Assembly (NCBI RefSeq): GCF_002797495.1
Contig: NZ_PGEZ01000001.1
Span: 124,001-188,000, forward strand
Direction: 5' to 3'
DNA length: 64,000 nucleotides
From: Mumia flava
GTDB lineage: Bacteria > Actinomycetota > Actinomycetes > Propionibacteriales > Nocardioidaceae
This document shows positions 18,127 through 24,108 of this stretch, piece after piece (the stretch's first letter is position 1; each line of letters starts with the position of its first letter). Position numbers and translations under genes: made by a program. The notes under the pieces are model-generated. The model had not been told where the DNA came from. It was given only the letters and a program-made list of their open reading frames with translations, and made no database searches.

Positions 18127-18163
18127 CGAGGGGCCCCGTACCGATCCGGTACGGGGCCCCTCG
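18127..18163 (+). terminator. Strong terminator after the DUF7455 gene
   Basis: A perfect 17 base-pair stem (18127-18143 with 18147-18163) with a three-base ATC loop, rich in G and C. Confidence 0.85.
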
Positions 18164-18195: not shown

Positions 18196-20259
18196 CTACC
18201 ACGATGCGCTCGAACCCCGCACCCAGCGAGGACGGACCGCCAATCCGTCCAGATGAGCGCGATGCTCAGCCGCGTTCAGACGGACCGCACCGTTCGCTTC
18301 GCTCCGGCCGACCGCTGCCAGGAGGTGCTTCTTCCGGGCTTTGTACTTCGCCTTCGGACGGAGGTGGGTCGGCTTCTTCCCGGCGAGCTTGACCCAGAAT
18401 CCCCGGGAGGTCGAGGTCACGTACTGGAGCACGTAGACCTTGGAGCCGCGCTTGATCCGCGGCAGCACCACGCTCGGCCGGGCGACAGAGCGACCGGTGC
18501 TCGACTCGACCAGGATCGCCTTGCGGTCGACGTACCGCTTGCCGCGCACCACGCGTGCCTTGCGGCGGATCCGGACCTCGTCGTCGGTGAACATGCGCGC
18601 CGAGCACCCGATCCATCGCCACCGGCCGACACGACCGAAGCGGTCGTTCGGCCTGACCTGCAGGCACACGATCGTGCCGGGCTGGATCCGGATCCGCCGC
18701 TCGGTCTTCTGTGTCGCCTTGAGCCGCCGCCACCGTTGAGACATCCGGCCGGCACGCTGCGAGGTCGTCGTGACCCGGAGGTCGTAGTGAGCGATCCCCG
18801 ATGCGTCCCACGGTCGCTTCCACCGGAATCGCGCCACGGGCTTGAGGGTGACCTTCGGAACGCGGCCCCGGACCTCTCCAACCGGCGGACGCAGGTCCAA
18901 CGCCCAGCGCGTCGAGGCGTAGGTCGAGGGGTCCGCGGCAGCCATCGCCCGCACGCGCACACGGTGGTCGTCCTCGTACTGGAGAATCTCCGCCTGGTAC
19001 GGGCTCGCGCACGTCTTGAAGAAGTCGAGGTCCGAGGCGCACTCCCACAGCCAGGTCTCCGACGGGTTCGCCGGCTCGAAGCCGATCACGGGCAGCTTGG
19101 TGTCGGTGTACCGGCTCGGGGCATGGGTGATCCTCACCCGAGGCGCGAACCGTGCCGGCACGCTCCTGACCAGGTAGCGGCGACCGTACTCGACCGTCAC
19201 CAGGGCCAACCCCCGCCGCGTCGGCGTGATCGTCAGCATCTGCCCGTACCGGTCCCTGAACGCCAGGTAGTTTCCCCCCGTTCGGGGTGTCAGGTCCACC
19301 CTCTTCCACGTCCGACCGTCCACGCTGCGCAGAAACATCGTGTCGGGGGTGAAGCTCCGGGGGACACCGATCACGTAGCCGTCCCCCGAGCTGCTCACGG
19401 TGAGCTCTGACGGGCGGGAATCGGAAACGGTCGTCGGCTTGCTCCACACGGTGCCGTCCGCCGACCGGCGAGTCATCAGCCCGTCGGAGCCCGTGTACGC
19501 GACCACGAATCCGGCCGGCCCCGCCATGAGCTCCGTGTCCCGTGGCCCGGACGCGAGCTCGAGGTCGTCGGGCCAGGTCACGGCCCGGTCGTGCGAGACG
19601 ACCGCGCGGAGGTCCCCGAGGTCCTCGTACATGACCGCGACGTCGTCGCCGGCGACCGCGACCCCGTCGGCGTCGATGCCCGGGAGGACCACTTCCCAGT
19701 CCTGTCCGCCGTCGACGCTGACCATGATCGCGTCGTTGCGGGCCGTCTGCGGCTGCGAGCGAGCGGCCACGACGACGGTGTCACCGTCCACGGCGAGCTG
19801 TCCGCCGTCCTGGCCCGGGACCCCGATGACCGGGTACGTCGCCACCCGCTCACGCGTCGCCGTGTCCCACACGTCGAGCTCCATCGTGCTGTCGCCGGGA
19901 TTCGCCAGCACGTACGCACGGTTGCCGGCGACGACCAGGTCGACCCAGGCTGCCCCGGTTCGGTGGACGGGAGCTCGCATGGTCCGCCCGCCGTCGGTCG
20001 AGAGGTTGATGGCGTAGCCGGCGTCCTCCGCACGGACGCCGACCACGCGATCTCCGTCGGCGCGCAGACGCTCGAACGACTGACCGACACTCCGCTCCTG
20101 AGCGGACCACACGGACCCAGCGGGCAGGCTCCAGGTCCCGACTGCCGCGACCGCCGGCTCGACGGGCAGCGCAACGACCAGCCCGCCGACCACCGCGAGC
20201 ATCACGGCCAGCACCACCGCCGGCAGCCGTCGTTCGGACGTCCTGCGCTGGTGGCGCAT
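18196..20259 (-). CDS. Secreted paralog 1: Asp-box beta-propeller plus shared C-terminal modules
   Basis: 687 residues, function unknown. Signal peptide (1-39, ending AVAA). Five Asp-box-like motifs near 87, 181, 222, 266 and 312 (for example SVDGGQDW, SADGTVW, SVDGRTW) are spaced about 44 apart after the first, like blades of a sialidase-type propeller; sialidase catalytic residues were not identified. Residues 375-460 form an Ig-like domain with two cysteines (WLWECASD, CASPY). Residues 470-687 carry modules shared with the three following paralogs: GTIVCLQVRPNDRFGRVGRW, VVRGKRY and a C-terminal GLAVRPRWV. Start supported by GAGGAGGAG. Promoter layout is shared with paralog 4. Confidence 0.8.
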   Translation of the reverse strand: MRHQRRTSERRLPAVVLAVMLAVVGGLVVALPVEPAVAAVGTWSLPAGSVWSAQERSVGQSFERLRADGDRVVGVRAEDAGYAINLSTDGGRTMRAPVHRTGAAWVDLVVAGNRAYVLANPGDSTMELDVWDTATRERVATYPVIGVPGQDGGQLAVDGDTVVVAARSQPQTARNDAIMVSVDGGQDWEVVLPGIDADGVAVAGDDVAVMYEDLGDLRAVVSHDRAVTWPDDLELASGPRDTELMAGPAGFVVAYTGSDGLMTRRSADGTVWSKPTTVSDSRPSELTVSSSGDGYVIGVPRSFTPDTMFLRSVDGRTWKRVDLTPRTGGNYLAFRDRYGQMLTITPTRRGLALVTVEYGRRYLVRSVPARFAPRVRITHAPSRYTDTKLPVIGFEPANPSETWLWECASDLDFFKTCASPYQAEILQYEDDHRVRVRAMAAADPSTYASTRWALDLRPPVGEVRGRVPKVTLKPVARFRWKRPWDASGIAHYDLRVTTTSQRAGRMSQRWRRLKATQKTERRIRIQPGTIVCLQVRPNDRFGRVGRWRWIGCSARMFTDDEVRIRRKARVVRGKRYVDRKAILVESSTGRSVARPSVVLPRIKRGSKVYVLQYVTSTSRGFWVKLAGKKPTHLRPKAKYKARKKHLLAAVGRSEANGAVRLNAAEHRAHLDGLAVRPRWVRGSSASW

Positions 20260-20310
20260 GCGCTCCTCCTCGTCGGGCGGACGCGCACCCGGGTCGCGAC
20301 TCGCCCCGGC

Positions 20311-20369
20311 AGCCTACGAGTCGAAGCCCGCCGGACTGGATGGTCTCGGCAACGATCCGATATCGATCG
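20311..20369 (-). promoter_or_regulatory. Promoter and conserved operator of secreted paralog 1
   Basis: The -10 box TAGGCT (20316-20311) lies 52 bases from the ATG. Thirty-one bases upstream of it is a 22-base element (20348-20369) with core CGATCCGATATCGATCG (plus strand), identical except for one base to one placed in the same way before paralog 4. It abuts the stop codon of paralog 2. Confidence 0.6.
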
Positions 20370-21470
20370 TCAGCGGCGTGCCCACCGTGGGACCACGACC
20401 ACGCCCTCCAGGACCACGACTCGGCGCGTGAGGTCGCCGCGCACCCGGACATGGCCGGACCGTCGCGCCCTCAACCAGTGGAGCTCGGTGACCCGGCCGT
20501 GGCGGGCACTGCCGCGCCGGTGCGTCACGAATCCGATCGTGCGGGACCGACGCCCTGGCAGCGACGCCACGGCGATCCCGGTCCGGCGCGAGCGGGTGAC
20601 CACGAGCGCGACCCGCGAGCCCGCACGAGCCCGGACGCGCGCCACGTCACCGTGGTCACGCAGGATCGCGGCCCAGCCGCCGGAGAAACGCCGACCCCTG
20701 ATCCGGCGGACGTCGTCGCTGAACCGGGTCCGCGTCAGTCCGTACGCACGGGTTGCGCACCCGACGTCGTGCCACGAGCCCACCCGGCCGACCTGGTCGT
20801 GGGGCCGCACCTGGACGCACACGCTCTCGCCCCGCCGCAGGCGCACCACGGTGGAACGGAGATCCGGTCCGCGCAGCGTCCCGTGGCGCGTCCAGGTCGG
20901 ACGACGCGCGTGCGAGGCACCCCGTCGGACGCGGACGTCGACCGACGTCACACGCGTGTCGTCGACCGCCTTCCACCGGAAGGCGACGCGTCGCTTCGCC
21001 ACCGACCGTTGGCGGAGCCGATCGGGCACGTCCCCGACGTCGGGTCGGTCGAGGTCGACCGTCCACGCGATCTTCCGCCACGCGAACAACAGCGTCGACC
21101 CGTCCGGGGAACGCTGCGTCGCGTCCACGAAGAACCAGCTGGACGGGGCGGGACCCACGTACTCGAAGACACCCCGACCCAGGTGGGTGCAGCGGACGTA
21201 CGTGACGCGCGGACCACCGAAGTAGCAGTCGACGTCGAGGTTGTCGTTGTCGTCGGCACCGACGACCCGGAACGCGATCTCGACCTCGTCAGGCCACCCC
21301 TTGGAAAGACCCGGCTTCCGCAGGACCTCCAGACGCGCCTCCGGCTGCTGGCTCTCAGCCGCGACCGCGGCCGGGGCACCGGTCGGCACCAGCGCCAGCA
21401 GCGCTCCGAGCAGCGCGATCGTGAGTGAGAACGAGAGCGGATCGGTCGAGCGGCGCCGTGCGGGGGTCAA
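20370..21470 (-). CDS. Secreted paralog 2
   Basis: 366 residues, function unknown. TTG start supported by AGGAG eight bases upstream; signal peptide about 1-38 (LGALLALVPTGAPAAVAA). An Ig-like domain with two cysteines (VDCYFGG, YVRCTH) and a closing WTVDLDRP is followed by RVAFRWKAVDDT, ESVCVQVRPHDQVGRVGSW, a second cysteine (VGCATRAY), IRGRRF and the terminal VVVVPRWARR. These line up with the shared modules of its neighbours, but this copy is the most diverged in the last third. Very arginine-rich. Confidence 0.75.
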   Translation of the reverse strand: MTPARRRSTDPLSFSLTIALLGALLALVPTGAPAAVAAESQQPEARLEVLRKPGLSKGWPDEVEIAFRVVGADDNDNLDVDCYFGGPRVTYVRCTHLGRGVFEYVGPAPSSWFFVDATQRSPDGSTLLFAWRKIAWTVDLDRPDVGDVPDRLRQRSVAKRRVAFRWKAVDDTRVTSVDVRVRRGASHARRPTWTRHGTLRGPDLRSTVVRLRRGESVCVQVRPHDQVGRVGSWHDVGCATRAYGLTRTRFSDDVRRIRGRRFSGGWAAILRDHGDVARVRARAGSRVALVVTRSRRTGIAVASLPGRRSRTIGFVTHRRGSARHGRVTELHWLRARRSGHVRVRGDLTRRVVVLEGVVVVPRWARR

Positions 21471-21523
21471 CGTGCGGTCTCCTGTGGGTCAGCGGTGCAC
21501 CGACATCGGTCCGGCGCCGAGGG

Positions 21524-21529
21524 TCTCTA
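21524..21529 (-). promoter_or_regulatory. Possible -10 box of secreted paralog 2
   Basis: TCGTAGAGA on the minus strand resembles the TCGTAGGCT of paralog 1 and lies 54 bases from the TTG start. Upstream at 21569-21578 the ten bases TCGGATCGTT match part of the operator before paralogs 1 and 4, but in the opposite orientation. Confidence 0.35.
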
Positions 21530-21628
21530 CGAAAACGCAGGTTGCACGGTGGGTTCCAGCGCCGGGCTCGGATCGTTACGACGCTGTGACGCCTTGAGCG
21601 CCAGCGCCTATCTTGCTGCGTCGACCGA

Positions 21629-22786
21629 TCAGCACCGGGGCGGCCAGACGTTCCGTTCGACCCACCGCGGCGCGAAGCCGATGCCCTCGAGAAGAGCGCC
21701 TCGCTCCGGGTCCCCCGATCGGACGGAGACGCGTCCCGTGCGGTCGGTGGGCACGGAGATCCAGTCGATCACCCTGTGACGCTTGCGGCGGACGCGGTTC
21801 CGGTAGACCACGGTCCATCTGGTAGAGCACCGGGTCCTCGGTCCCTTCGCGCGGAAGCGCTCCCCGCCCTTGCGCGCGGTGTAGACGATCACCGGCCTGG
21901 ACCCACGTGGGACCCGCAGCGAGATTCTCGACTTCGTCGGTTTGGGCGGGAGTCGAACCGCACGCCCGTTCGCGAAGCGCTTGCCCTTGACGATCGAGTA
22001 CTGGCCGAGCAACCGATGATCCCGGAGACGGAACACCCGGCTGACGCACTGCCGCAGGGTGGCTCGCTCGCGCCAGCGAGACTGGTTGCCCGCGCGGTCG
22101 CGAAAGCGCACATCGGCACAGACGACCTCGCCGGGCCTGACCCGCAGCGTCACCGACCGGGTCGCCACGCCCTGCAGCCTGCGGGGGTAGGTCCACGGCG
22201 GTCGACGCTTCGCGCGCGCTGACGACCGGGTGATCCGGACGTCCATCTCAGCGAATCCCGACCCGTACGGCTCATCGACCGTCTCCCATCGGAACGTGGT
22301 CCGAGGCCGCGTCGTGACGTGGAACCTCGAGTCGGTCCCCGCGTAGATCGGTGACCCGCCGGGCGGGATGTTGTCCCAGAGCCAGTGACGCTCGGCGACG
22401 GCGAGCACCTCGCCCGTACGTGTGTCGTGGGCTTCGACCCGGACGAAGACCCGTTGGTCCCTCCCCGTCCCGACGGGTGCGTAGGGGCTGTCGCACCCTT
22501 CGAACGGCAGGTTGTCCGACTCACACCTGAACGAGATCTGGTGCTCGCGCTCGGGGTCGGTGCTGCCCCGCAGCTCGAACTCGATCAACGGCTCGTAGTC
22601 GCTCGTGAACCGCCAGGGAGCCTGGGTGAACACGAACCTCAGGTCGTCCTCCGCCTCCGCGGCCGACGTCGGCGCGACGACGAGCCCCGTCACGACGAGC
22701 AGGCTTGCCAGCACCGCCAGCCACCTCGGTCGCGAACCGTGCTCTCGCGAGACGTCATGAGGCTGTCCCGTGATCCGGCGAGCCAT
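21629..22786 (-). CDS. Secreted paralog 3
   Basis: 385 residues, function unknown. Signal peptide about 1-43 (VLASLLVVTGLVVAPTSAA). Ig-like domain with cysteines (SFRCESDNLPFEGCDSPY) and RHWLWDNIPP; second sandwich domain TTFRWETVDE ... PWTYPRRLQGVATRSVTLRV, GEVVCADVRFRDRAGNQSRW, QCVSRVFRLRDHR; last module VKGKRFANGRAVRLPP, WISVPTDRTGRVSVRSGDPE and terminal GIGFAPRWV. It is closest to paralog 4, whose stop codon is 42 bases upstream, so the two probably form one transcript. Confidence 0.8.
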   Translation of the reverse strand: MARRITGQPHDVSREHGSRPRWLAVLASLLVVTGLVVAPTSAAEAEDDLRFVFTQAPWRFTSDYEPLIEFELRGSTDPEREHQISFRCESDNLPFEGCDSPYAPVGTGRDQRVFVRVEAHDTRTGEVLAVAERHWLWDNIPPGGSPIYAGTDSRFHVTTRPRTTFRWETVDEPYGSGFAEMDVRITRSSARAKRRPPWTYPRRLQGVATRSVTLRVRPGEVVCADVRFRDRAGNQSRWRERATLRQCVSRVFRLRDHRLLGQYSIVKGKRFANGRAVRLPPKPTKSRISLRVPRGSRPVIVYTARKGGERFRAKGPRTRCSTRWTVVYRNRVRRKRHRVIDWISVPTDRTGRVSVRSGDPERGALLEGIGFAPRWVERNVWPPRC

Positions 22787-22828
22787 GTCAGTCCTTCCTT
22801 CGAACCAGCGGGTCGAGCGCTTCCCTCA

Positions 22829-23998
22829 TCACAGGTCTGAGTAGCAGATCCAGTCGTGCGGGTAGACCCACCGCGGGGCGAAGCCGATGCCCTGCACGAA
22901 CTGGCGTCGGTCCCAATCCCCCGCTCGGATCGAGACACGTCCGCTGCGTCGCATCGGCAGGCGGATCTCCTCGACCAGACCGTGCCGGTTCCGGCGGTCC
23001 CGGATGTCGATCCAGTCCCTTCTCGGGAAGCAGCCGGCCTTCGGCCCGCGCGCAACGAGGAACTCGTCGCCCTTGCGCTTGCTGAAGACGACGAACGGGG
23101 TCGCCCGACGGGGGACGCGCACCGAGATCCTCGCCTTGACGGACGAGGGAGGGAGGCGCATCGAACGACCACCTGGAAAACGCTTGCCCCTGACGATCTT
23201 CACGGGTCCGCGCCGACGGTGATCGCGGGGACGGAACACGCGGCTGGCGCACACGCGTCCGGAGGCCGCCCAGATGGTCTGATTCCCGACGCGGTCGCGC
23301 AGGCGCGGCTGCACGCACACCACCTGACCCGGCTTCACGTGCACCCGCACCGACCGGGTGGTGATTCCGCGCAGCCGGCGCGGGTAGGTCCAGGGCCGCG
23401 ACCGCTCGGATCGTAGCGACGTTCGTGAGACGCGCACGTCCATTGAAGCGAAACCAGAGCGTGCGACGCCCCGGTCCGTGATCCGCCACCGAAAGGTCGC
23501 CGTCGGCTCAGCGATGATGCGGAACGAGTAGTACTCGCCTCGTTGGACGGCGGAGGCGAACGGCTCCTCCTCGTCGAGAGTCCACCGACGCTCGGCGACC
23601 GCGATCAGCTCTTCCGTCTCCCGGTCGATGGCTTCGACACGCACGTGGCCCTGGGACACCCGATTCATCGGATGCTCCGGAGTGTAGGGACTTGAGCAGG
23701 TCACGACGGGCTGGCTGTGAGAACGACACCGGAACGCGACATCATGGCCGTTCGCGCCGCGCAGTTCGAACGCGAGCGTGGGCGAGGGATATCTCTGTCC
23801 GATGATCCGCCCCGGCGCTCGGGTGAACACGATTCTGGGATCGTCCTCGGCCTCCGCGCTCGCCGTCGGCACGAGCGAGAGGCCCGAAGCGACCAAGACG
23901 ACAGCCATTCCGGCCTTCAGCACCGACGTCAGCCGACCACGGCGATTCTCACGGCCCGACGGCCCGTTCCTTCGTGCCGTCATCCGTCGGCGGCGCAT
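22829..23998 (-). CDS. Secreted paralog 4
   Basis: 389 residues, function unknown. Signal peptide about 1-49 with a long arginine-rich head. The same three modules as paralog 3 in the same order: Ig-like domain (FRCRSHSQPVVTCSSPY), sandwich domain (ATFRWRITD, PWTYPRRLRGITTRSVRVHV, GQVVCVQPRLRDRVGNQT, CASRVFRPRDHR) and C-terminal module (IVRGKRFPGGRSMRLPP, GRVSIRAGDWD, GIGFAPRWV). First gene of the probable 4-3 operon. Start at 23998 fits a GGAAGGA ribosome binding site. Codon use looks less strictly GC-ending than in neighbours. Confidence 0.8.
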   Translation of the reverse strand: MRRRRMTARRNGPSGRENRRGRLTSVLKAGMAVVLVASGLSLVPTASAEAEDDPRIVFTRAPGRIIGQRYPSPTLAFELRGANGHDVAFRCRSHSQPVVTCSSPYTPEHPMNRVSQGHVRVEAIDRETEELIAVAERRWTLDEEEPFASAVQRGEYYSFRIIAEPTATFRWRITDRGVARSGFASMDVRVSRTSLRSERSRPWTYPRRLRGITTRSVRVHVKPGQVVCVQPRLRDRVGNQTIWAASGRVCASRVFRPRDHRRRGPVKIVRGKRFPGGRSMRLPPSSVKARISVRVPRRATPFVVFSKRKGDEFLVARGPKAGCFPRRDWIDIRDRRNRHGLVEEIRLPMRRSGRVSIRAGDWDRRQFVQGIGFAPRWVYPHDWICYSDL

Positions 23999-24049: not shown

Positions 24050-24108
24050 ACGCTAACGGGGATCGTGCGCCGATCGGGTTGCGCCCGGCAACGATCCGGT
24101 ATCGATCG
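24050..24108 (-). promoter_or_regulatory. Promoter and conserved operator of secreted paralogs 4 and 3
   Basis: The -10 box TAGCGT (24055-24050) is 52 bases from the ATG, and the 22-base element (24087-24108, core CGATCCGGTATCGATCG) starts 31 bases further up: the same distances as before paralog 1. It lies between divergent genes and could also influence the DUF456 gene. Confidence 0.6.

Follow-up and report, generated by a model that had tools for sequence, protein, structure and literature searches.

Going by its title, a report by Gaskell from 1995 is said to describe a three-domain order in the sialidase of Micromonospora viridifaciens (GH33; 2ber). As far as that source goes, this is an exported actinobacterial protein in which an Asp-box propeller, an Ig-like domain and a galactose-binding-type jelly roll follow each other, as is predicted for P0001, one of the four Mumia flava proteins discussed here. 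The sialidase differs in having one sandwich domain before the jelly roll, whereas P0001 has two and lacks the RIP motif, and in having a propeller, which the other three proteins (P0002-P0004) lack. The carbohydrate-binding modules of family CBM35, which bind uronic acid or galactose, and the related CBM6 fold are jelly-roll beta-sandwiches, which is likewise the fold predicted for the C-terminal module (M3) of our proteins; 14 CBM_35 domains from the order start with an EAE calcium site and end with N-x-D, and M3 lacks both (by eye). BT0996-C of Bacteroides thetaiotaomicron is a basic module of the CBM6/35 fold that lacks the usual binding signatures and, according to PMC9843283, binds polygalacturonate electrostatically. 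M3 is like it in predicted jelly roll, high basic charge and lack of the usual signatures, whereas BT0996-C is lysine- rather than arginine-rich and belongs to a pectin-degrading enzyme. Finally, exoproteins of Actinomycetota (e.g. L025, L028, L055-L059 and L087) carry at the C-terminus an unnamed pair of an FN3 domain and M3, which is related to modules M2-M3 of our proteins through orthologs in other Mumia genomes; DDR, CPxCG and a final DG are retained in the canonical copies and largely lost from ours.

Our preferred reading, to which we give an even chance, is that the four proteins are exported surface proteins of glycan-binding type, in which M2-M3 would provide tethering to an anionic wall polymer, with P0001 as the original and P0002-P0004 as copies without the propeller.

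Gene order and modules of the cluster

The window, i.e. the whole stretch of 64,000 nucleotides of the M. flava genome that was analysed, contains four intact and neighbouring open reading frames on the minus strand: P0001 (18196-20259, 687 aa), P0002 (20370-21470, 366 aa, TTG start), P0003 (21629-22786, 385 aa) and P0004 (22829-23998, 389 aa). Judged by eye, each begins like a signal peptide and is preceded by a purine-rich sequence of ribosome-binding type, and from their sequences all four proteins are probably exported. A genome search with P0004 returned its three paralogs as the only other homologs (E 1.6e-95, 1.2e-20 and 2.1e-18; 20 of 20 candidates scored), and the cluster of four consecutive minus-strand paralogs described in the first-pass annotation is thereby borne out.

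The paralogs were aligned pairwise, module by module, and compared with 300 shuffles per pair. M2 (z 13.8-40.5) and M3 (z 4.1-41.5) came out as homologous in all six pairs, which shows homology outside the Ig-like part in all four proteins, with the M3 pair P0002-P0001 scoring 65, below the best shuffle (74), and the pair P0004-P0001 scoring 58, barely above it (56). For M1 we obtained z 7.4-36.6 in the three pairs without P0002 and only -0.8 to 2.7 in the three pairs with it. Since the M1 values collapse in the P0002 pairs, the three shared modules that had been reported in order for the whole cluster hold for P0001, P0003 and P0004, while P0002 has M2 and M3 only, preceded by a stretch in which no homology to the other M1s could be detected. 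The motifs GKRF, GRVS(I/V)R and GIGFAPRWV occur literally in P0003 and P0004, while P0001 (GKRY, GAVRL and GLAVRPRWV) and P0002 (GRRF, GHVRVR and GVVVVPRWA) carry variants.

On the minus strand M1, which is Ig-like with two Cys in P0001, covers 18895-19149 in P0001 (z 11.6 to P0004 and 7.4 to P0003), 22373-22651 in P0003 and 23573-23848 in P0004. M2, which is FN3-like, covers 18607-18894, 20760-21044, 22049-22372 and 23252-23572 in P0001 to P0004, and M3, in the same order, 18196-18606, 20370-20759, 21629-22048 and 22829-23251. These assignments are based on module alignment against shuffles (M1 of P0004; M2 of P0001, P0002 and P0004) or on alignment and charge (M3 of the same three), and for P0003 on its predicted model and the structural matches, together with alignment for M1 and M2. 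M3 is seen directly to be the last domain in all four, immediately after M2. The Pfam fn3 model gave no match in the window proteins; elsewhere, fn3 (cut-off 25) gives 28.7 (L107), 30.5 (L118) and 24.7 (L087) over the stretch that directly precedes M3.

Fold, charge and relatives of M3

Mature P0003 was modelled with AF2 (mean pLDDT 74.7, pTM 0.64, alignment depth 7 sequences), and the model includes a low-confidence stretch in M3 (residues ~271-300, pLDDT 48-61). The top 14 structural matches of this model (Z 10.1-8.5) end in M3 and comprise CBM35s, jelly-roll tails of carbohydrate enzymes, a xanthan lyase and Cry toxins. The predicted M3 aligns with 2w47 (CBM35) at Z 10.0 and 3.1 Å over 127 residues and with 2wz8 at Z 9.9, and the M1-M2 pair, which resembles tandem FN3 domains, matches FN3 pairs at Z 8.4 and below; Foldseek's own ranking is headed by FN3 chains with low TM-scores and not by CBMs. 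A CBM35-type jelly roll is hence the predicted fold of M3. Membership of CBM35 by sequence was rejected: PF16990 (CBM35) matched neither the window proteins at E 1 nor 13 canonical M3s at E 10, and nothing in the M. flava genome at E 1e-8, and a profile of the 14 CBM_35 domains gave 5.6% with canonical M3, 1.7% with the Mumia orthologs and 0.1% with the window copies (hhalign). No Pfam or NCBIfam model matched M3 at its cut-off, and sequence searches of the PDB gave nothing convincing (best E 0.37 for P0004 and 0.83 for the M3 profile).

Of 296 genomes sampled from the class at least 70 have C-terminal domains of M3 type, and of 296 from the phylum at least 25. The profiles are linked via the Mumia orthologs (A8-A9 97.9%, A9-A7 98.7%; hhalign), and direct comparison of window M3 with canonical M3 gives 66.5%; a search of the M. 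flava genome with the canonical profile, in which 15 of 65 candidates were scored, did not find the window copies at E 1e-5. Judged from these profiles, window M3 is divergent but related to a C-terminal domain that is widespread in actinobacteria, and is not an invention of this locus. The earlier suggestion of a possibly new C-terminal domain thus stands in so far as no Pfam or NCBIfam model covers it, and has to be given up in so far as M3 has relatives across the phylum and a known predicted fold. A generic literature search, judged by titles and the start of abstracts, did not bring up a recognisable M2-M3 module, although a published description may well exist.

In 47 of the 50 best loci M3 is the last domain of the protein, one of the 47 (L101) being cut by a stop inside M3, and the cargo in front of it is unrelated, with GH25, Rv2525c-like hydrolase, PD40, Kelch, PKD/Big and pentapeptide domains (20 of the 50 loci scanned, ~500 residues). 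As to the conserved residues, P0001 keeps DD and DG and P0002-P0004 have neither (by eye), and CPxCG is absent from all four window M3s and from the propeller-type orthologs. Because the linking orthologs also lack CPxCG, DDR/CPxCG/DG were not used as defining. Close to the end, all 13 canonical M3s examined have an Asp that is replaced by Glu or Gln in P0002-P0004, and M3 function may have drifted in view of this exchange and the missing CPxCG pair.

Several weak matches were also recorded. Seven of 13 canonical M3s match zf-ChsH2 around CPxCG (best E 0.02), and this zinc ribbon was taken as chance; single canonical members match Thioredoxin_10 (E 0.0038) and an ice-binding model (E 0.002). 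CE2_N, likewise rejected, gave one match, in the M3-like region of L134 (E 1.8e-5, 25.2 bits, cut-off 27.9), and its sequences came from one of 149 genomes of the phylum, too few for profile comparison.

Charge, which can be read directly, is basic in 24 of 24 M3 copies: the four in the window (+24 to +29), the four Mumia orthologs (+11 to +19), two short relatives and 14 remoter relatives (+7 to +25 per 120 aa). The Mumia propellers, five in number, have charges from neutral to acidic (0 to -16), so that the basic M3 in Mumia is not a matter of general composition. Taking the fold, the charge and the accompanying domains together, the proteins most likely act in adhesion or envelope binding. 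The acidic glycans bound might also be foreign (plant pectin, fungal or other bacterial capsules), the proteins then being adhesins or binders in soil or rhizosphere instead of own-wall anchors. This would agree with several of the best structural matches being CBMs of plant-polysaccharide enzymes, with the rhizosphere origin of another Mumia strain, as given in its source, and with the polygalacturonate binding described in PMC9843283 for BT0996-C, a basic module of the same fold. However, because the scanned cargo has GH25 and Rv2525c-like hydrolase and no pectin enzyme (20 loci, ~500 residues before M3), own-wall targeting is the better fit, and we consider foreign targets rather unlikely.

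Copies beside parE and the propeller of P0001

The locus lies beside parE. M. flava has four copies, four other Mumia genomes have one each at the same place, and none was found in a fifth; the P0001 orthologs are 28-31% identical compared with 85-89% for parE. In the tree P0002-P0004 group together (90/84), as do P0003 and P0004 (100/98). Local amplification, as proposed in the first-pass annotation, is supported by this grouping and by the copy-number variation observed in the six genomes (4/1/1/1/1/0). The best reading is that P0001, by its position, is the ancestral gene and that P0002-P0004 are propeller-less copies.

A 23-bp element is located upstream of P0004 (24086-24108, minus strand), 87 bases from the start codon and with TAGCGT beginning 30 nt behind it; with one difference it is also found upstream of P0001 (20347-20369, minus strand), at the same start distance and with TAGGCT 30 nt behind (hand counts). 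An MtrA box upstream of cluster genes is a lead: the repeat is perfect 5' of P0002, at the described spacing, and 5' of two of the four orthologs, where it is one base closer (equalled by 0-2 of 500 shuffles). Of the other orthologs one has a weaker box (47 of 500) and one has none (499 of 500), no fit was seen at P0001, P0004 and P0003 (270, 253 and 500 of 500 shuffles as good), and over the whole window both spacings are at chance level. A hairpin of 17 pairs just behind P0001 (18127-18163, minus strand) is a probable terminator, and the 96-nt stretch containing it folds at -71.5 kcal/mol (z -7.4), a stability that none of 200 shuffles attained.

P0002-P0004 might also be copies of the C-terminal half of the propeller gene that are drifting and have largely lost their function, as suggested by their ~30% identity to P0001, the M1 of P0002 that is past recognition, the loss of residues conserved in canonical M3s, and a third-codon-position GC of 0.82-0.87 compared with 0.95 in parE and sigA. 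We consider this unlikely, since the three reading frames are intact, still start like export signals and retain ribosome-binding-type sequences and the four Cys common to all paralogs, and P0004 has the 23-bp element at the same distance as P0001.

Some 330 additional N-terminal residues of P0001 (19150-20139, minus strand), overlooked in the first list of modules, which was incomplete to that extent, are predicted to form a beta-propeller (Z 18.6 to the PLL lectin 5c9l, tied with WD40 propellers). With a slightly relaxed consensus two Asp boxes were found in P0001, neither with the perfect consensus, and three in each of the four orthologs (0 of 1000 shuffles had as many in each case); P0001 has two further boxes that agree with the short form given in PMC2716378. 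That P0001 is an active sialidase-like glycosidase, with the small proteins as accessory binders, could be argued from its top Foldseek match, the M. viridifaciens sialidase with its propeller, Ig and jelly roll (E 4.3e-10, TM only 0.25), from the Pfam BNR_2 scores of the orthologs (37.1, 34.6 and 27.7 bits, two of three above the cut-off of 31.4; P0001 itself without a match) and from the low score of P0001 with the NCBIfam model of the glycosylhydrolase family F510_1955 (19.3 bits against a cut-off of 175). Against this, the (Y/F)RIP motif of GH33 sialidases, enzymes with an arginine triad, a Tyr and a Glu in the active site, is absent from all five Mumia propellers and structural re-ranking puts PLL lectins level with WD40 propellers, which makes such an activity very unlikely.

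The charge of the very basic M3 could in addition mean nucleic-acid binding, but that the proteins are secreted binders of DNA or RNA, toxins or phage decoys is most improbable, as the predicted folds are extracellular-type sandwiches, a search of 50,697 phage and 72,556 plasmid records with one canonical M2-M3 query (from L062) yielded nothing at E 1e-5, and the Cas6-type matches, which would point to CRISPR, are weak, confined to P0004 among the four paralogs (PF08798 16.6 bits, cut-off 25; PADLOC Cas6e 15.1 bits, E 0.0057) and taken as chance.

A possible docking tail

The secretion, binding, ligand and tethering that we infer for surface proteins of glycan-binding type would fit together as follows. 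M2 would be an FN3-like spacer and M3 a strongly basic C-terminal jelly roll, and M2-M3 would keep the proteins on the cell surface mainly through charge, by binding an anionic polymer of the wall or an acidic polysaccharide similar to it. P0001 would be the original gene, with the Asp-box propeller as cargo, and P0002-P0004 propeller-less copies that would have arisen in this lineage and diverged fast. More tentatively, and with less than even confidence, we suggest that M2-M3 is an undescribed, phylum-wide and non-covalent docking tail on the cell's own anionic wall polymers, a basic jelly roll placed by many Actinomycetota at the C-terminus of unrelated exported cargo, which in M. flava has been freed from the propeller and multiplied as stand-alone binders, two of the four genes sharing an upstream element.

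Should M3 serve generally for docking, a location that can be tested could be given to many of the exported actinobacterial proteins now listed as "hypothetical", and the missing M3 family model could be built from the M3 sequences collected here. The Mumia cluster, moreover, represents a natural series, with a propeller protein, three propeller-less copies and a relative without a gene at that place, which would be suited for testing what the tail does without its cargo.

Four paralogous genes, their modules and upstream elements

The open reading frames P0001 to P0004 (minus strand; 18196-20259, 20370-21470, 21629-22786 and 22829-23998) are flanked by sigA-type and parE/gyrB-type genes (flanks named by eye) in a Mumia (Nocardioidaceae) genome of 4.4 Mb. 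That they form a cluster of four paralogs, as the first-pass annotation had stated, is borne out by a genome search with P0004, in which all 20 of 20 candidates were scored and the hits fell at four places and no more; the same number came from a profile built on the shared region (11 of 43 candidates scored).

The modules were compared using 300 shuffles per pair of proteins as the null. The FN3-like module (M2) exceeded the null in all six pairs (z 13.8-40.5), and the basic C-terminal module (M3) gave z 4.1-41.5, with the weakest pair, P0002-P0001, scoring 65, below the best shuffle (74), and the second weakest, P0004-P0001, scoring 58 vs a best shuffle of 56. Since both of these pairs involve P0001, most of the connection between its M3 and the others comes from the propeller-type orthologs in other Mumia genomes; against one of these, L023, M3 of P0001 and P0002 gave z 13.7 and 13.8. 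The Ig-like module (M1) is common to P0001, P0003 and P0004 (z 7.4-36.6), while the stretch at this position in P0002 had no detectable relation to the other M1s (z -0.8 to 2.7). Hence, the suggestion that all four proteins share three modules stands for M2 and M3 but not, judged by shuffle z, for M1 in P0002, and the literal motifs listed in the annotation are present in P0003 and P0004 but confined to those two. Four cysteines are common to P0001-P0004, and M3 of P0003 and P0004 has two additional ones.

Preceding P0001 and P0004 are 23-bp elements (minus strand; 20347-20369 and 24086-24108, respectively), which show one difference and are 87 bases from the start in each case, with the hexamers TAGGCT (P0001) and TAGCGT (P0004) 30 nt further on (hand count). 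The genome has these two sites and none besides at up to three mismatches, and inspection by eye places the core CGRATCGTTRC or a one-base variant at approximately -92 to -100 upstream of three of the four Mumia orthologs. An MtrA direct repeat known from Streptomyces (PMC13189361 and PMC5650626) fits the region before P0002 and two ortholog sites, the latter one base closer, and there is no fit upstream of P0001 and P0004. Perfect, MtrA-box-like GTnAC direct repeats are located at 21575-21590 and ahead of the L049 and L050 propeller genes; across the whole window such repeats have chance-level frequency. Behind P0001, a 17-pair hairpin without a T run (18127-18163; 96-nt stretch, -71.5 kcal/mol) is a probable terminator.

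The propeller gene and the origin of the cluster

P0001 is larger than its paralogs, and its N-terminal part is predicted to be a beta-propeller, where the model quality (pLDDT 69, pTM 0.45) permits a domain-level reading only. Relaxed Asp boxes in P0001 and four Mumia orthologs were more numerous than in any of 1000 shuffles, and two of three ortholog propellers scanned passed the Pfam BNR_2 cut-off; the propeller of P0001 itself had no BNR_2 match in the Pfam scan. The Foldseek list for P0001 was headed, at a low TM-score (0.25), by the M. viridifaciens sialidase, in which the domain order is much like the propeller - Ig - FN3 - jelly roll of P0001. The RIP motif, according to an excerpt of PMC9782813 a common feature of non-viral sialidases, is missing from all five Mumia propellers.

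The proposed local amplification is supported by the presence of four copies here vs one propeller-type homolog, detected with P0003, in four of the five other Mumia genomes. In the fifth, Pv 4-285, P0003 matched only part of a different protein of 2,100 residues, also ending in FN3 and M3, and its sigA-to-parE stretch had no match to any of P0001-P0004. The genomes of zg.B17, M. quercus and G003 retain the order sigA - rhomboid-like - DUF456-like (opposite strand) - propeller gene - parE (names by eye); for M. xiangluensis, sigA is outside the stretch compared. P0001 and its orthologs share 28-31% identity, vs 85-89% in parE, 69-75% in the neighbouring DUF456-like gene and 38-52% in a small gene of lipoprotein-like type, itself fast and not found in M. 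quercus. The 2,100-residue protein is present in four of the five genomes (L012, L014, L015 and L016), with FN3 and the common form of M3 ("canonical M3") at the end in both copies read (L012 and L014); searches of the window's own genome with P0003, P0004 and the shared-region and canonical M3 profiles did not find it (11 of 43 and 15 of 65 candidates scored for the two profiles).

A tree built from 27 selected rows, where the letter composition of P0002 and P0004 differs from that of the alignment, gave support of 90/84 for P0002-P0004, 100/98 for P0003 with P0004 and only 53/80 for all four copies. An economical history would start from a single propeller gene, of which one copy would have lost its propeller, with further duplications then following in this Mumia lineage; the deeper forks are weak.

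Distribution and cargo of the C-terminal module

The window profile matched 35 of 197 genomes of the family and an ortholog profile 56 of 147 genomes of the order, where some matches span M1 or M2 only; some window-profile family matches are due to chance, two being helicase tails. Many of the remaining matches end in the recognisable canonical form, and 13 of these were aligned. Profile comparison gave 98.7% for canonical M3 vs the Mumia orthologs and 97.9% for the orthologs vs the window copies, and just 66.5% for canonical M3 vs the window copies directly; on the window's own genome, where 15 of 65 candidates were scored, the canonical profile gave nothing at E 1e-5. Judged from sequence, M3 belongs with a widespread C-terminal module, to which it is tied through the Mumia orthologs. 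The earlier idea of a possibly new domain holds in part: no Pfam or NCBIfam model attained its cut-off for M3, but this link makes M3 a divergent relative of a widespread module.

The canonical profile detected the module in at least 70 genomes out of 296 from the class and at least 25 out of 296 from the phylum; the two samples overlap, and scoring was limited to 15 candidates in any one genome, which makes the counts lower bounds. In 47 of the 50 best loci from these searches, no more than 25 residues lie between the end of the match and the stop, one of the 47 (L101) being cut by a stop within M3 and some of the 50 being close relatives. In L134, L135 and L136 an M3-like domain is followed by approximately 105 further residues, and the M3-like domain of L134 gives a weak CE2_N match, which might connect it to a jelly roll that already has a name. 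Assemblies of 1.0-1.7 Mb from one family, 60-100% complete (L107, L108, L110, L112, L113 and L114), each carry one or two long proteins with M3.

Pfam scans of 20 of the 50 best loci identified as cargo an Rv2525c-like hydrolase (L087, L095; also L025, outside the 20), GH25 (L125), subtilase (L134, M3 not last), PD40 (L102, L117), Kelch (L120), PKD with Big_13 (L104), Big_9 (L089) and pentapeptide repeats (L107); fn3 alone was seen in L097 and L118, Ig matches alone, below cut-off, in L094, L109 and L111, and five loci had no Pfam match. Other Nocardioidaceae have short M2-M3 proteins lacking propeller or cargo (L024, L029, L032, L033, L034 and L036); five of these six group at 100/99 in the 27-row tree, and in five of six the C-terminus is PRW or PSW followed by a few more residues.

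Fold, charge and likely role

When mature P0003 is modelled, M3 begins near residue 202 and has pLDDT 77-94 in 10 of 14 ten-residue blocks, 48-61 at approximately 271-300 and 51 in the tail. The structural comparison of this model opens with 14 rows (Z 10.1-8.5; alignments of 111-133 residues, every one ending at 327-340), which were assigned to M3 from lengths and ends, as the comparison gives first and last aligned residues only; they comprise a pectate-lyase binding domain, CBM35s, GH115, GH43 and GH30 tails, xanthan lyase and Cry toxins, and FN3 pairs come next, for M1-M2. Foldseek's own ranking of P0003 has FN3 chains on top, with low TM-scores. That M3 is a CBM35 by sequence was rejected in the Pfam, own-genome and profile comparisons.

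All 24 M3 copies for which charge was measured are basic (net +7 to +29), and the five Mumia propellers have net charges of 0 to -16. According to PMC9843283, BT0996-C, a basic domain of the same fold that lacks the usual signatures, relies on charge to bind polygalacturonate and does so less well in 150 mM salt. Because of the predicted fold, the basic charge, the BT0996-C precedent, the C-terminal position and the mixed cargo, the best reading, to which we give an even chance, is that M3 might act in charge-driven docking on an anionic polymer, either the own wall or a foreign glycan. The amplification that gave P0001-P0004, putatively exported surface proteins, is real and specific to this lineage; it is of an ordinary kind, but the Mumia cluster exposes a common, unnamed C-terminal module.
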